DNA from: Lebetimonas sp. JH292
GTDB taxonomy: Bacteria; Campylobacterota; Campylobacteria; Campylobacterales; Nautiliaceae
Direction: 5' to 3'
Assembly (NCBI RefSeq): GCF_000523275.1
Contig: NZ_ATHQ01000002.1
Span: 1 to 64,000, forward strand
DNA: 64,000 nt
The notes beneath the pieces were generated by a model. It saw only the letters and a list, made by a program, of their open reading frames with translations. It was not told where the DNA came from and did not search any database. The translations under genes were made by a program, and so were the position numbers. This document shows, in pieces, positions 4,437 through 12,578 of the stretch (the first letter of the stretch is position 1; every line of letters begins with the position of its first letter).

Positions 4437-6008
4437 ATGGATTATGCAATGCTAGAATGGGCAAGAGCCCAATTTGCAATGACAGCGTTGTTTCACTTCT
4501 TTTTCGTTCCATTTACATTAGGAATGTCGTTTTTAGTGGCATTTTTTGAAACTATCTATGTAAAAACCGGAAAAGAAGAGTGGAAAAACATTACACAGTT
4601 TTGGCAATTGATATTTGGTATTAACTTTGCCATAGGTTTAGCAACAGGTATTATTCACGAATTTGAATTTGGGACAAACTGGTCTACTTATTCATGGGTT
4701 GTAGGTGATATTTTCGGAGCACCTCTTGCGATTGAAGGTATTGTTGCATTCTTTATGGAGGCAACATTTGCGGCAATTGCATTTTTTGGATGGAAAAGAG
4801 TAAGCAAGGGTGTTCATTTAAGTGCATCTTGGCTGCTTGCAATTGGTTCAAACCTTTCAGCGCTTTGGATATTAATTGCAAACGGATTTATGCAACATCC
4901 AAGCAGTGAATTTTTGAGATTTTCTATTGATAACGCAAGAGCTGAAATGACTAATTTCTGGGCATTAATTACCCAACCGGTTGCACAGGTTAAATTTTTA
5001 CATACTATCAGTGCTAGTTATACATTGGCAGCGGTATTTGTACTTGGTATTTCTTCACTTTATCTGCTTAGAAAAAAACATGTTGATTTTGCGAAAAAAT
5101 CAGCTGCGGTAGCGGCAGCATTCGGTTTAATTGTTTCTATTTTTACTGTAATTATAGGTGATGAACACGCATACGAAGTTACAAACACTCAGCCTACAAA
5201 AATAGCTTCAGCAGAAGGGCTTTATGTAGGTGAAAAGGGTGCACCAATAGTGGCTTTTGGATTTCCAAAAGATTTAGATGCAAGAAATGTTAAATCAAAC
5301 GATGAAGCATGGAGTTTTAAAATCGAAATTCCAGGATTACTTTCACTTCTTGGAAAAAGAAATCCAAATGCTTATATTCCTGGACTTAGAGATTTAGTAA
5401 ATGGAAATGATAAATACGGTATTTGGCCATTTGCCAAATTACATCAAGTTGGTAAAGAAGCTATTGAAGATTTGAAAGCATATCACGTGGCAAAAGCCAA
5501 AGGTGACACTGCGGCAATGGAAGCAGCAAAAAGAGATTTTTATGCTCCAGTTACCACAGTTGATGGATGGACAGTTACAAAAGCAGATTTAATGGGTTAC
5601 GGATATCTTGATGATCCAACTAAACTGTATCCACCTGTGTCACCAGTATTTTATTCATTCCATATTATGGTTGCTTTAGGATTCTGGTTTATTATTTTAT
5701 TTGCATGGGCATATATTGCAGTTACAAAAGGAACATTTGAAAACAGTGCACTACTACAAAAACTTGCAGTACTTTCTGTACCACTTCCATGGATTGCAAC
5801 AAGCTTTGGTTGGATGACAGCAGAACTTGGAAGACAACCTTGGACAGTATTCGGATTGCTTCCGACAAAAATTTCAGCAACACCAGTTGCATTGCAAAAT
5901 GTTCAGGCAACATTTTTCTTATTCTTAAGTGCATTTGTAATTTTAGGTATTGCCGAACTTAAAATCCTATTTACGGTCGTAAAAATCGGACCAAAAGGAG
6001 CGCACTGA
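4437..6008 (+). CDS. cydA: Cytochrome bd quinol oxidase subunit I
   Basis: CydA carries the haems and the quinol site of the high-affinity bd oxidase in the inner membrane. The 523-residue protein begins MDYAMLEWARAQFAMTALFH; His20 matches the b595 ligand. KFLHTISASY holds the b558 His, SFHIMVALG the axial Met, and GWMTAELGRQPW the conserved loop. Length is close to E. coli CydA, suggesting the long Q-loop form. I chose the ATG at 4437 because an AAGGAGG site (4425-4430) precedes it; upstream codons overlap DUF4492. The stop overlaps the cydB start (TGATG). Confidence 0.97.
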   Translation: MDYAMLEWARAQFAMTALFHFFFVPFTLGMSFLVAFFETIYVKTGKEEWKNITQFWQLIFGINFAIGLATGIIHEFEFGTNWSTYSWVVGDIFGAPLAIEGIVAFFMEATFAAIAFFGWKRVSKGVHLSASWLLAIGSNLSALWILIANGFMQHPSSEFLRFSIDNARAEMTNFWALITQPVAQVKFLHTISASYTLAAVFVLGISSLYLLRKKHVDFAKKSAAVAAAFGLIVSIFTVIIGDEHAYEVTNTQPTKIASAEGLYVGEKGAPIVAFGFPKDLDARNVKSNDEAWSFKIEIPGLLSLLGKRNPNAYIPGLRDLVNGNDKYGIWPFAKLHQVGKEAIEDLKAYHVAKAKGDTAAMEAAKRDFYAPVTTVDGWTVTKADLMGYGYLDDPTKLYPPVSPVFYSFHIMVALGFWFIILFAWAYIAVTKGTFENSALLQKLAVLSVPLPWIATSFGWMTAELGRQPWTVFGLLPTKISATPVALQNVQATFFLFLSAFVILGIAELKILFTVVKIGPKGAH

Positions 6009-7205
6009 TGACTTGGGCACCAATTACAGTGGACGCGACACATTTTTATCTTCAGGTATATTTCTGGATAATTGTCGCGGTTTTAGGAGGGCTTTTTTTA
6101 TTTATGACATTTGTTCAAGGTGGACAAAGTTTAATGCATGTTGCAAAAGATGAAATGGAAGAAAGAGGTATTGTAAACTCCCTTGGTAGAAAATGGGAGC
6201 TTACATTTACTACTCTTGTATTGTTTGGTGGTGCGTTGTATGCAGCATTTCCATTATTTTATTCTGTATCATTTGGTGGTGCATACTGGGTATGGATGTT
6301 AATTTTATTTACATTTGTATTTCAGGCAGTATCATATGAATATATGAATAAACCCAATAACTTAATTGGTAAAAATACATATAAATTCTTTTTATATGTA
6401 AACGGTATAGTTGGTATGATTTTAATTGGTGCAGCTGTCGGAACATTTTTTACAGGAAGTAACTTCACATATGACCCAGTAACAAGAGTATTACATTGGG
6501 GAACAGCTGCTAATGGATTTAATTTAAGAGGGCTTGAAGCTGCTATAGATTTTGGTCACGGAGCTTGGTTTAACTTGGCATTTGGTGTATTAGTGTTTGC
6601 AGCAGCAAGAATTTTGGGTGCTTTATGGCTCATGAATGATTTAGACCAAAATGAATTTTCAGCAGTTCATGAAAGATTAAGAGCAGTTTTAAAAAGATGT
6701 TTTGTTGTATTGTTGATTGCCCTATTAATAGTACTTTACGGTTTATTAACAATGAAAGGATATTCTTATAATATCCATGACCCTGCCGGAAAAGTTACAT
6801 TGGTAGATGGCAAATATTTCCAAAATTTACTTGCAGTTTGCAGCAATTCCTTTGATTTTATTCTTGGTTGGAGTAGTTCTTTTTGTTATCGGAATATTCC
6901 AAGGAATTAAAGGTTCAACCAAAGGTATCTGGCCAGCAGGACTTGGAATTGTATTAATTGGAATTATTGTCTTTGTTATAGCTGGACTTAACGGAACTCC
7001 ATTTTATCCAAGCTACGCTGATTTACAAAGCAGCTTAACTATTCAAAACAGCTCAGGAAGTAAATATACTCTTGAAGTTATGGCATGGGTTAGTGTAGCG
7101 GTACCATTTGTATTGGCATATATTGTTTATGTCTGGTATCAGATGAAAAAAGGCGGACCTATCAGTATTGAAGAAATTAATGATTCTGAATCACATGCAT
7201 ATTAA
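6008..7205 (+). pseudogene. cydB: Cytochrome bd quinol oxidase subunit II, one frameshift
   Basis: The first frame (6008 to about 6830) encodes the N-terminal two-thirds of CydB, starting MTWAPITVDATHFYLQVYF. A second frame continues with LQFAAIPLILFLVGVV and ends SDSESHAY-like at 7205. Joining them by removing one base near the AAAA run at 6822-6825 gives a continuous protein of about 398 residues with the expected multiple membrane helices. No sequence is missing at the join. Because cydA, DUF4492 and the promoter are intact, a sequencing or assembly indel is more likely than real loss of the oxidase. Confidence 0.9.
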
Positions 7206-9116: not shown

Positions 9117-9193
9117 GCGGGCTTAGCTCAGTTGGCTAGAGCGCCACCTTGCCAAGGTGGAGGCCGCGGGTTCGAGTCCCGTAGCCCGCTCCA
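9117..9193 (+). tRNA. tRNA-Gly (GCC)
   Basis: Cloverleaf with acceptor GCGGGCT/AGCCCGC, anticodon stem CCACC/GGTGG around the loop TTGCCAA (anticodon GCC), and T-arm GGTTCGAGTCC. The 3' CCA is encoded. Confidence 0.97.
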
Positions 9194-9197
9194 GTAA

Positions 9198-9272
9198 GGC
9201 GCCATAGCCAAGTGGCTAAGGCGGGGGCCTGCAAAGCCCTGATCCCCGGTTCGAATCCGGGTGGCGCCTCCA
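9198..9272 (+). tRNA. tRNA-Cys (GCA)
   Basis: Acceptor GGCGCCA/TGGCGCC, anticodon loop CTGCAAA (anticodon GCA), T-arm GGTTCGAATCC, and CCA encoded. It begins four bases after tRNA-Gly and is probably cotranscribed with it. Confidence 0.97.
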
Positions 9273-9273
9273 C

Positions 9274-9302
9274 TTGACATAGGTATATATTTTAATTATA
9301 AT
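9274..9302 (+). promoter_or_regulatory. Perfect sigma70 promoter for tRNA-Leu
   Basis: TTGACA (9274-9279), 17-base spacer, TATAAT (9297-9302). The -35 box starts one base after the CCA of tRNA-Cys, and the -10 box ends 13 bases before tRNA-Leu. The tRNA-Leu and tRNA-Ser genes thus have their own strong promoter. Confidence 0.88.
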
Positions 9303-9315
9303 TCCTTTCACATTT

Positions 9316-9403
9316 GCCCGGGTGGCGGAAATGGTAGACGCAAGGGACTTAAAATCCCTCGGGAGTTTTTCCCGTGCCGGTTCAAGTCCGGCCCCGGGCA
9401 CCA
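9316..9403 (+). tRNA. tRNA-Leu (TAA)
   Basis: Class II tRNA with acceptor GCCCGGG/CCCGGGC, anticodon stem AGGGA/TCCCT around CTTAAAA (anticodon TAA), a long variable arm, and CCA encoded. Confidence 0.97.
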
Positions 9404-9443
9404 CCGTCAATCAAATATTTAAAATTATTTGTTTTGATTTATT

Positions 9444-9533
9444 GGAGAGGTGGGTGAGTGGTTGAAACCGGCGGCCTTGAAAGCCGTTGAACGGGCAACC
9501 GTTCCGTGGGTTCGAATCCCACCCTCTCCGCCA
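9444..9533 (+). tRNA. tRNA-Ser (TGA)
   Basis: Class II tRNA with acceptor GGAGAGG/CCTCTCC, anticodon loop CTTGAAA (anticodon TGA), a long variable arm (CGTTGAACGGGCAACCG), T-arm GGTTCGAATCC, and CCA encoded. Confidence 0.97.
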
Positions 9534-9596
9534 CTGCTAATTTTGTAATTTGTCTTTCTTCAAAAAATATTTTATCAGTAATTAATTTAGATATGG

Positions 9597-9602
9597 TATA
9601 AT
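9597..9602 (+). promoter_or_regulatory. Extended -10 box before the glycosyltransferase fusion gene
   Basis: TATAAT preceded by TGG (extended -10 pattern, 9594-9602). The untranslated leader to the ATG at 9683 would be about 75 bases and is A/T-rich with no clear structure. No convincing -35 box is present. Confidence 0.5.
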
Positions 9603-9682
9603 ATATTCAAACCTTAATATTCAATTGTTTTTTATTTAAATAATTTTTTTAATATTTTAAAAAATTAACGGAGCTTTAAAAA

Positions 9683-11800
9683 ATGAATATTCATTTAGAA
9701 AAAAAGAATAAAAAAATAATTATTTTTTATTCATCTATCGGTTATGGGCATATTAGCGCTGCTCAGGCTATTAAAAAAGAGATACATAAACATAATTCCT
9801 ATGCTGTTATTGTTTTGAAAGATATTCGTGATTTTATGAATCCATTGTGGCGTAAAATTGATGAAAAGCTTTATTGGCTCGTGGCCGGAAACTGTCCGGA
9901 GTTGTTTGATGTTCTTTTTCAAGAAATTCAAATGCGAGGTAACAGTGTTCCTTCACTTGCTTTATTACCAAATGATTATCCTGATGAAAAGGTTTTTGAA
10001 TTTATACAATCCAAACAGCCGGATGTAATTTTATCCACGCATTACGGAGCGGCACAGGTTCTCGGTAATTTAAGAGAAAAAGGTAAATTAAAAAACATTA
10101 AAATAGGATGGCTTCACACTGATTTTTTTCAAGGTTATTTTCCAAGAATTTCCAAACGAATAGATCAAACTTTTCTTGCACACAGTGAACTGTATAAAAT
10201 GTGGCTTTCGGCAGGCGTTCCCTCTGAAAAAATTATTACAACCGGTATGCCCGTATATGTGCCTGAATATGAGTATAAAGATCAAAAAACAATTTTAGAT
10301 AAATATAATTTAACAGAAGATATACCAATAATATTAATAACTTCCGGAAAAGAAGGGGTTGGAAATTATGTCGCTTTGGTTAAAGATATTGTGGCACATT
10401 ATAACGGAGCGTTGCAAATTGTTGCTGTTTGTGGAAAAAATAAAAAACAGCAGTTTTTGCTTAAAACATTAAAGAAAAATCTGCCCGATAAAATAAAACT
10501 GAAAATTTTTTCTTTATTAACGCATGATGATTTGCTCTCTTTAATGAATATATCTGATATTTTAATAACTAAAGCCGGAGGGTTAACTCCTGTGGAAGCA
10601 TTTTCTATAGGCGTTCCCACTATTCTTTTAAATATACTCAGCGGGCATGAAAGGGAAAACGCTTCTTTTTTTGCCAGGCTTGGAGTTGCCAAGCTTGCCT
10701 CCAATACAAATCAGGCTGCCGAACTGCTGCAAACATTTTTGTTTAACCCTGCGGAGAAAGAAGCTATCTGCAGAGCGCAGAAAAAATTTAAAGAAAATTT
10801 TAAAATAGAGCATATTGTCAGGTTTGCGCTTAATGATAATTTTATTTCATGTTCTTTACCGGGAGATTTTGGTGCTGAAAACGGCAATCCGGTTATTAAT
10901 GTCAATGATGCATTATCACAGCTTGATGCCAATTCTCCGGCTGAAGTTGAATTGCTTTTATCATATGCCACTTCCCAGTCTCCGCAGAGAATTATTTGGG
11001 AAAATCCATTCGGACACATTGCTATTCGCATAGATAAAACTGTTTACAGTGCAAATTATATTGCAAACCCTTCTGTTGATTCTAATTTTTTACAACATTT
11101 AAGTCTTGCGGATTATCTTTATGGGGTAAAACCGCCGTCTCCTTCACAAATACATACCAACACATACGGTATGGCTTATGGAAGGGAGACAATAGGCCTT
11201 CGTGTAGCCGGTGTTCCCGCACAGAATTTAACAGCTATGATAGCAGAAATTTATCGTATTGAAAATGATTTTAAAAAGGGAATTATAAAATGGGATAAAA
11301 CAAAATTTAACTGTGCCGATGTTGTTGATAGGATTCTTCAGGCTGGAGGTTACGGAGAGTCAAACATTTATGAAAAATTTAAATTACCTTCAATGCCTCT
11401 GGATTCATTTGAAAAAGCCAAAAAAATTTTTGAATCCGATGCCTCTTTAAAAACAGACCTTGTGGCTTATCATATGGTTCCCGGAGCTAATGCTGATTAT
11501 AACTATTGTCGTTTTCCTCTTTCATTGAAACAGCCCATACGCTCTTTAACTCGTACACTAAGCAATTCAAAAGATTTTCTTGAAATGTCAATTTCTAAGC
11601 ACTTAGTAGTATATTACGGTGACCCCCGTGTTTATTTTGAAAATTTACGTAGTGATTTTGAAAATAAAAATGCTCATTTTTATAATTCTCATCATTATGT
11701 TTATTATAAAGCTTTGGCAAACGATCTCAAAAAATTTTTTAAATTTAAAAAAGCTCCTCCAAAAATTAATTTTTGGAAAATAAGTTTTTTAAAGCAGTGA
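9683..11800 (+). CDS. MGDG synthase-like glycosyltransferase fused to a permuted papain-like domain
   Basis: The 705-residue protein has two parts. Residues 1 to about 385 resemble the MurG/MGDG-synthase/UgtP lipid glycosyltransferase group: SSIGYGHISAAQAI at 17-30, and KAGGLTPVEAFSIGVPTI from 297, the usual sugar-nucleotide site, followed by SGHERENASFF. The second part (about 430-705) carries FGHIAIRI with His445 and NCADVVD with Cys544, in the His-then-Cys order of permuted NlpC/P60, LRAT or DUF4105-type folds. No membrane helix or signal is seen. A glycolipid transferase joined to a thiol acyl-hydrolase or acyltransferase is a reasonable inference. The gene stands alone between the tRNA cluster and a convergent operon. 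Confidence 0.7.
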   Translation: MNIHLEKKNKKIIIFYSSIGYGHISAAQAIKKEIHKHNSYAVIVLKDIRDFMNPLWRKIDEKLYWLVAGNCPELFDVLFQEIQMRGNSVPSLALLPNDYPDEKVFEFIQSKQPDVILSTHYGAAQVLGNLREKGKLKNIKIGWLHTDFFQGYFPRISKRIDQTFLAHSELYKMWLSAGVPSEKIITTGMPVYVPEYEYKDQKTILDKYNLTEDIPIILITSGKEGVGNYVALVKDIVAHYNGALQIVAVCGKNKKQQFLLKTLKKNLPDKIKLKIFSLLTHDDLLSLMNISDILITKAGGLTPVEAFSIGVPTILLNILSGHERENASFFARLGVAKLASNTNQAAELLQTFLFNPAEKEAICRAQKKFKENFKIEHIVRFALNDNFISCSLPGDFGAENGNPVINVNDALSQLDANSPAEVELLLSYATSQSPQRIIWENPFGHIAIRIDKTVYSANYIANPSVDSNFLQHLSLADYLYGVKPPSPSQIHTNTYGMAYGRETIGLRVAGVPAQNLTAMIAEIYRIENDFKKGIIKWDKTKFNCADVVDRILQAGGYGESNIYEKFKLPSMPLDSFEKAKKIFESDASLKTDLVAYHMVPGANADYNYCRFPLSLKQPIRSLTRTLSNSKDFLEMSISKHLVVYYGDPRVYFENLRSDFENKNAHFYNSHHYVYYKALANDLKKFFKFKKAPPKINFWKISFLKQ

Positions 11801-11804
11801 ATTA

Positions 11805-12578
11805 TTATTGTGACAAAGCTTTGTAAATAATATTTTCAATATTGGGATAGTTATATATATTCCCGTGTTTTACCTTATCAAGGCAATAAATGTTTTTAAG
11901 ATTTTTAATCTTTTTAATAAGACTATTTAAACATTTTTGTGGAATTTTATCATCATCTTTTAAAGCAATAATACTAACAGGCATATTTGCGTTTGAAATA
12001 AATTTTGCTTCATTAAATTTGTATTTTAAAAGGAAAGACACCGGGAAAAAAGGATATTCCATTTTTGCTATACATCCGATAGAACTAAAAGGTGTAATTA
12101 ATAAAACTTTTTTAACCTTTCTTTTGCCGGCTACATAACTCGCAACCGCGCTTCCCAGACTTCTGCCTATTAAAATATCCGGTTTATATTTATCGAATAT
12201 TTCAAGGGCGTATTTTTCAATGCATTTTTCACAAGGCTTTCCAACGCTGCCTGCATATCCCGGATAATTAAAACCTAAAAAGTTAAAATTTTTTATTTTT
12301 GGGGCTATTTTATCTAAAAATTCTATTGCATTGTTTGCATTACCGCTGAAATATAGAACTAAAGGGAGATTTTCCCCATTTTTTGTCATTGCTCCTTCAA
12401 GTTTGAGTCCATCGCTTGTTTTATAATATATTTTTTTAGCTATTTTTGGAACGTAGGGCTTTGCCCATTTTTTATTGAAAATTTTTTTATCCTGAATCAG
12501 GTATAAATAAATACATGCTGCTAAATAAAGAAAGAAAAAAAGAAGAAAAAAAATAAAGATTAATTTGACAAGTTTCAA
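11805..12578 (-). CDS. Membrane-anchored alpha/beta hydrolase
   Basis: The 257-residue protein starts with one membrane helix (residues 5-27) followed by an alpha/beta hydrolase domain. The nucleophile elbow GRSLGS, an acidic KDDDKIP segment and a late KHGNIY His give a full Ser-Asp-His triad, similar to the ABHD13/Bem46 group. The substrate is unknown. It overlaps thiG by four bases (ATGA), so it is the last gene of the liv-thiG transcript. The catalytic part probably faces the cytosol or periplasm next to the membrane; the side cannot be decided from sequence. Confidence 0.82.

Follow-up and report, generated by a model that had tools for sequence, protein, structure and literature searches.

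We found that the gene at positions 9683 to 11800 (forward strand) of the window, that is, the whole 64,000-nucleotide stretch of Lebetimonas sp. JH292 DNA analysed here, is an intact open reading frame of 705 amino acids with an ATG start, in which a glycosyltransferase of the GT28/MGDG-synthase type is joined to a C-terminal domain resembling permuted NlpC/P60 enzymes. In the reading that we favour and consider somewhat probable, its product is a horizontally acquired bifunctional enzyme that would glycosylate a membrane lipid and, via an acyl-enzyme formed at Cys544, would transfer or hydrolyse a fatty acyl group. Its parts are of known kinds, and the C-terminal family as well as the architecture appear undescribed; in the literature, we found no open-access paper in which an NlpC/P60 domain is paired with a glycosyltransferase of the MGDG type. 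In covalent linkage with a glycolipid synthase, a permuted NlpC/P60 domain would extend the roles of this fold to the tailoring of glycolipids, and the glycosyltransferase partner offers a ready guess at the substrate of the C-terminal domain.

Two of 397 sampled Campylobacterota genomes carry the fusion, namely that of the window and a congener (59 % identity, 62 % in the aligned C-terminal domain); within the window's family it is confined to this single genus and is thus not a trait of that family. The earlier note had proposed a search for the same two-domain architecture in Nautiliales and beyond, and it indeed recurs in three phyla. The fusion is encoded on two conjugative Polaromonas plasmids, pPNAP01 of P. 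naphthalenivorans and plasmid 2 of Polaromonas sp. JS666 (55 % identity, ~53 % in the C-terminal domain), as well as in a Gracilibacteria MAG, where the gene is split over contigs C124 and C54 and has in-frame TGA as predicted by code 25. The two Gracilibacteria halves (L003 2419-3813 and L014 3-617) hold 24 and 10 in-frame TGA codons, respectively. Given these codons and the homologues in standard-code bacteria, the gene was either recoded since its transfer or originated there. Furthermore, a stand-alone homologue of the C-terminal domain (384 aa, 27 % identity), with a signal-peptide-like N-terminus, is present on two Cupriavidus plasmids; in both records it occupies positions 5947-7101 (L006, L007), where no gene is listed. 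For this census, contigs were scanned with a single-sequence query and Burkholderiales chromosomes were left out. The fusion gene is horizontally distributed, and its G+C content (0.337) is close to that of the window (0.324), indicating that the acquisition was not recent. A prophage or viral origin was discarded, as neither phages nor viral contigs yielded a match. Between the two congeners, dN and dS (NG86) amount to 0.35 and 1.5 for the one domain and to 0.32 and 1.55 for the other, with dS near saturation; as judged from these values, both domains are under purifying selection. Because of this selection and the recurrence in three phyla, the fusion cannot be attributed to chance. A frame artefact was likewise ruled out, as the identical fusion occurs in three lineages.

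On both Polaromonas plasmids, the fusion gene stands in the same company: TetR, a hypothetical protein, DUF883, DUF6781, a UbiB-like kinase, the fusion, a patatin phospholipase, a polyprenyl-synthetase-like protein, and an RND efflux system (adaptor, pump, TolC). This operon (L004 1187-14876, L005 1227-14870), for which we found no describing paper, looks like a transferable membrane-lipid module. The order in Gracilibacteria is RND pump, VTT-domain (DedA-like) protein, fusion, patatin, and MFS. Thus, a patatin gene lies directly 3' of the fusion in two phyla, and this arrangement connects the protein with the turnover of acyl esters in lipids. The Polaromonas and Gracilibacteria patatins share 34 % identity and reach 193 bits with each other, compared with at most 147 bits to patatins of the window's family, and patatin relatives in Paraburkholderia and Sinorhizobium have no fusion gene adjoining. 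Counting against our favoured explanation, however, the fusion has no patatin gene beside it in the genome of the window, whose two patatin genes both lie elsewhere.

The first half had been read in the earlier note as a lipid glycosyltransferase of the MGDG-synthase/MurG type, and Pfam, NCBIfam, and PDB searches agree on this. Within the module (residues 1-390, positions 9683 to 10852, forward strand), the top Pfam hit was MGDG_synth (PF06925; residues 23-191, E 3e-17, 63.6 bits versus a cut-off of 25), accompanied by Glyco_tran_28_C (PF04101; residues 216-352, E 4.5e-10, 40.2 bits versus a cut-off of 22); both models also match the Polaromonas and Gracilibacteria fusions above the curated cut-off. 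Like YpfP/UgtP and MGDG synthase (GT28), the fusion possesses the whole N-terminal module with the G-loop (SSIGYGHISAA) and donor-binding motif (GGLTPVEA), but the named known members have no C-terminal thiol-enzyme domain. The nearest NCBIfam family was diglucosyl-diacylglycerol synthase (PRK13609-like), although the score of 165 bits falls under the 500-bit cut-off of the equivalog NF010135. Glycosyltransferase-only relatives on plasmids share only ~25 % identity with the fusion, and the Caballeronia glycosyltransferase-only homologues have a different gene context. By sequence search of the PDB, the best solved relatives are the processive diacylglycerol beta-glucosyltransferase 9wde (E 4e-25) and plant MGD1 4wyi (E 4e-22), both of which outrank MurG and make a lipid the likely acceptor. 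These two relatives, together with MGDG_synth as the top Pfam hit, also render it fairly unlikely that the acceptor is not diacylglycerol but, for instance, a polyprenol, a carotenoid or a lipid A precursor, even though such an acceptor would fit the RefSeq label of the Polaromonas protein (UDP-GlcNAc-LPS GlcNAc transferase), the score far below the diglucosyl-diacylglycerol synthase cut-off, and the polyprenyl-synthetase-like and UbiB-like genes in the Polaromonas operon.

The C-terminal domain (residues 395-705, positions 10865 to 11797, forward strand) contains a putative permuted NlpC/P60-like core at about residues 420-570, as delimited by hhalign and secondary-structure order, and fell into no named family in our searches. 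Relaxing the E-value threshold did not bring up any Pfam or NCBIfam family for these residues, and a sequence search of the PDB was likewise without a match. Peptidase_C92 (YiiX, PF05708) gave no match above 27 bits in the domain and none in the window's own genome, and Lnb_N (DUF4105, PF13387) gave no Pfam match above 22.2 bits in the domain. The previous remark that no named family is known with this pairing is therefore borne out in the libraries searched (Pfam, NCBIfam), and the second half by itself has no named family there either. Likewise, the two residues pointed out earlier, His445 in FGHIAIRI and Cys544 in NCADVVD (here FNCADVVD), are present as described, with His preceding Cys. 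The codon of the predicted catalytic His445 (GHIA, 11015 to 11017, forward strand, as are those following) lies at the start of strand 2, and that of the predicted nucleophile Cys544 (11312 to 11314) at the N-terminus of a helix. By its position at +13 from His445, Asn458 (SANY, codon 11054 to 11056) is a candidate for the third polar catalytic residue. Trp537 (codon 11291 to 11293) stands at -7 from Cys544, where PPPDE1 has its signature Tyr and Lnb has a Tyr, too; all fusions carry Trp here, and the stand-alone form from Cupriavidus carries Tyr. When the four full-length fusions are aligned with both Cupriavidus proteins, the residues that never vary include His445, Asn458, Asp538, Asn543, Cys544, Pro572, and Asp574. 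His445 and Cys544 are also kept in the two Gracilibacteria halves, and thus in every copy covering them, including the 27 %-identical stand-alone proteins. A chance co-occurrence of His and Cys was ruled out by this conservation.

To which fold does this domain belong? Using the seven-member domain family as hhalign query and 18 Campylobacterota YiiX/C92 proteins as template, we obtained a score of 26.1 (E 0.006 for a single comparison), with His aligned to His and Cys to Cys. None of 400 column-shuffled C92 templates reached this score (highest 21.4), and the E-value was 0.001 when three looser rows were included. With YaeF/YiiX (Peptidase_C92, PF05708), the domain shares the order of His, polar residue, and Cys in an aligned core of ~90 columns with the catalytic residues in register. 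However, it differs from YiiX/C92 in having no Pfam match, Trp in place of Tyr, no GD motif, and ~13 % identity, as well as in being joined to a glycosyltransferase and extended by a C-terminal region of ~120 residues. The match to Lnb_N/DUF4105 scored 21.6; this value was reached by 11 of 300 shuffled templates and 4 of 300 shuffled queries and is hence not significant alone, and the alignment is in the correct register (FGH-FGH, SANYIA-SYALNYAA, NCA-NCS). Lnb/DUF4105 (PF13387) resembles the domain in this GH...(A)NYxA...NC register, in an aromatic residue at -7 from Cys (Tyr in Lnb), and in a P-L-D stretch after the Cys helix, but its His-Asn spacing is 19 rather than the 13 of the fusion. 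Among 11 other family alignments built from the same loci and scored, Lnb_N came first and C92 second, and only these two cover the whole core. LRAT/HRASLS and LnsA have their His and Cys in the same permuted order as the domain and likewise an NC motif where the Cys helix lies; a Campylobacterota LRAT-like set aligned in hhalign over 18 columns around NC only. LRAT-like proteins of one Campylobacterota genus (HTGIYVG...YNCHCFVYECL; L081-L085) were weakly caught by the Peptidase_C92 model.

Of the PPNE hallmarks, the fusions exhibit a His N-terminal to the Cys, a third polar residue, and profile similarity to C92, but have Trp at -7 instead of the signature tyrosine, which is found at -7 from Cys in PPPDE1 and at -13 in YiiX (PMC3142127); the GD motif of the permuted NlpC/P60 class is absent from the fusions. 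Taken as a whole, the evidence makes it very probable that the domain is a member of the permuted NlpC/P60 superfamily.

According to the model that we favour, the GT28 module would first work at the cytoplasmic face of the inner membrane, where it would use a nucleotide sugar to attach a hexose to a lipid of the diacylglycerol type, as family-level evidence suggests. The C-terminal domain, with His445, Asn458, Trp537 at the Tyr position, and Cys544, would then attack an ester of a membrane lipid, and the resulting Cys544-acyl thioester could pass its acyl chain to a fresh glycolipid, to another acceptor or to water. The fusion would keep both activities on one membrane lipid, and the adjacent patatin phospholipase of Polaromonas and Gracilibacteria may handle the turnover of the lyso-lipid or fatty acid. 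That the protein acylates or deacylates its own glycosylated lipid is what we infer from its relatives and from the conserved patatin neighbour. For instance, acyl-thioester chemistry is known for LRAT/HRASLS and LnsA (PMC3142127, PMC7387801), a bound fatty acid was found in the YiiX pocket (PMC3142127), and both Lnb (DUF4105) and Tox-Act1, the latter recently shown to be a phospholipase, act on acyl groups (PMC12994826).

The same relatives could also suggest a permuted NlpC/P60-like thiol enzyme acting on proteins or peptides, for example in lipoprotein N-acylation or as an amide hydrolase, uncoupled from the glycolipid. Lnb (DUF4105) is a lipoprotein N-acyltransferase (PMC12994826), LnsA is or contributes to one (PMC7387801), the motif register is shared with Lnb_N, and the Cupriavidus homologue looks periplasmic. 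However, the fusions have no signal peptide, and in the Polaromonas forms a single N-terminal TM segment precedes basic residues, a topology that would place both domains in the cytoplasm. Lipoprotein N-acylation takes place outside the cytoplasm, and Lnb is periplasmic; the predicted placement of the fusions thus argues against lipoproteins as their substrate. As the N-terminus of the Cupriavidus homologue is signal-peptide-like and the fusions look cytoplasmic, the substrates of the two may differ. With the fusion to a lipid glycosyltransferase and the patatin neighbour pointing to lipids, we regard a protein or peptide substrate as quite improbable.

An unrelated new fold, in which His445 and Cys544 are kept for a metal site or for structure, is in our view very improbable. 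Such a fold would account for the missing sequence matches in Pfam, NCBIfam, and PDB and for two poor AlphaFold models, each from two input sequences only, one of the core (pLDDT 48, pTM 0.55) and another with pLDDT 37, neither of which gave a Foldseek hit at E<=0.001. Nevertheless, the low-confidence core model runs b-b(His)-b-b-a-b-a-a(Cys) followed by a short helix, the first helix being short, the second long, and the third bearing Cys544 at its N-terminus. This strand/helix order fits the five-stranded sheet and Cys helix of the PPNE core and is that described for permuted NlpC/P60 enzymes (Xu et al. 2011; PMC3142127). Furthermore, a C92 score above all shuffles with the catalytic residues in register, and C92 and Lnb_N as the top two against real-protein decoys, stand against a new fold. 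The permuted papain-like second half proposed in the earlier note is supported by the C92 profile match and the Lnb/DUF4105 register, but is structurally unproven. Least probable of all, a lipid-binding domain that lacks catalytic activity or has a regulatory function and directs or controls the glycosyltransferase, to which the Trp at the signature-Tyr position, the lacking GD motif, and a basic C-terminal tail of the fusions might point, is hard to reconcile with His, Asn, and Cys being invariant from Cupriavidus (27 %) to Gracilibacteria, as inactive domains usually lose the nucleophile.

Extending the bifunctional lipid enzyme to its widest form, we tentatively suggest, as a doubtful but conceivable case, a mobile single-chain family that glycosylates a diacylglycerol-type lipid and then (trans-)acylates the product by a permuted NlpC/P60 thioester mechanism, yielding an acylated glycolipid that these bacteria are not known to make and moving between phyla in the company of a patatin and, in some cases, an RND exporter. 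Its occurrence in groups as scattered as Campylobacterota, Gracilibacteria, and the hosts of betaproteobacterial conjugative plasmids suggests that a trait for membrane editing is passed from host to host. As the Pfam copy used does not contain the domain, members of the family are annotated as glycosyltransferase only or left unannotated.

In the window, the fusion gene starts 150 bases after a cluster of tRNA-Gly, -Cys, -Leu, and -Ser (9117 to 9533, forward strand) and is followed by a convergent alpha/beta hydrolase gene (11805 to 12578, reverse strand) and then thiG. The hydrolase is probably not part of the system; most members of the family have it beside thiG but do not have the fusion gene. 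An operon with this downstream hydrolase was ruled out, the gene being convergent and vertically inherited in the family. Relatives without the fusion carry a diguanylate-cyclase or another gene between tRNA-Ser and hydrolase-thiG. Thus, with hydrolase-thiG widespread in the absence of the fusion and other genes at the same site, the fusion gene is an insertion in one genus. From the tRNA cluster to hydrolase-thiG (window 9117-9683; L059, L060, L063), the genes differ from genus to genus, as expected of an insertion hotspot. With these flanks and a promoter-like extended -10 box, TGGTATAAT (9594 to 9602, forward strand, DNA motif search), the gene stands alone as described earlier, and the box is likely its own promoter. 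The scan picked up no consensus -35 for it; if used, it would give a 5' UTR of ~75 nt, and GGAG stands upstream of the ATG. In the window (1-64000), 17 extended -10 boxes of the form TGNTATAAT were counted, versus 5.6 expected by chance and a maximum of 12 in 100 shuffles.
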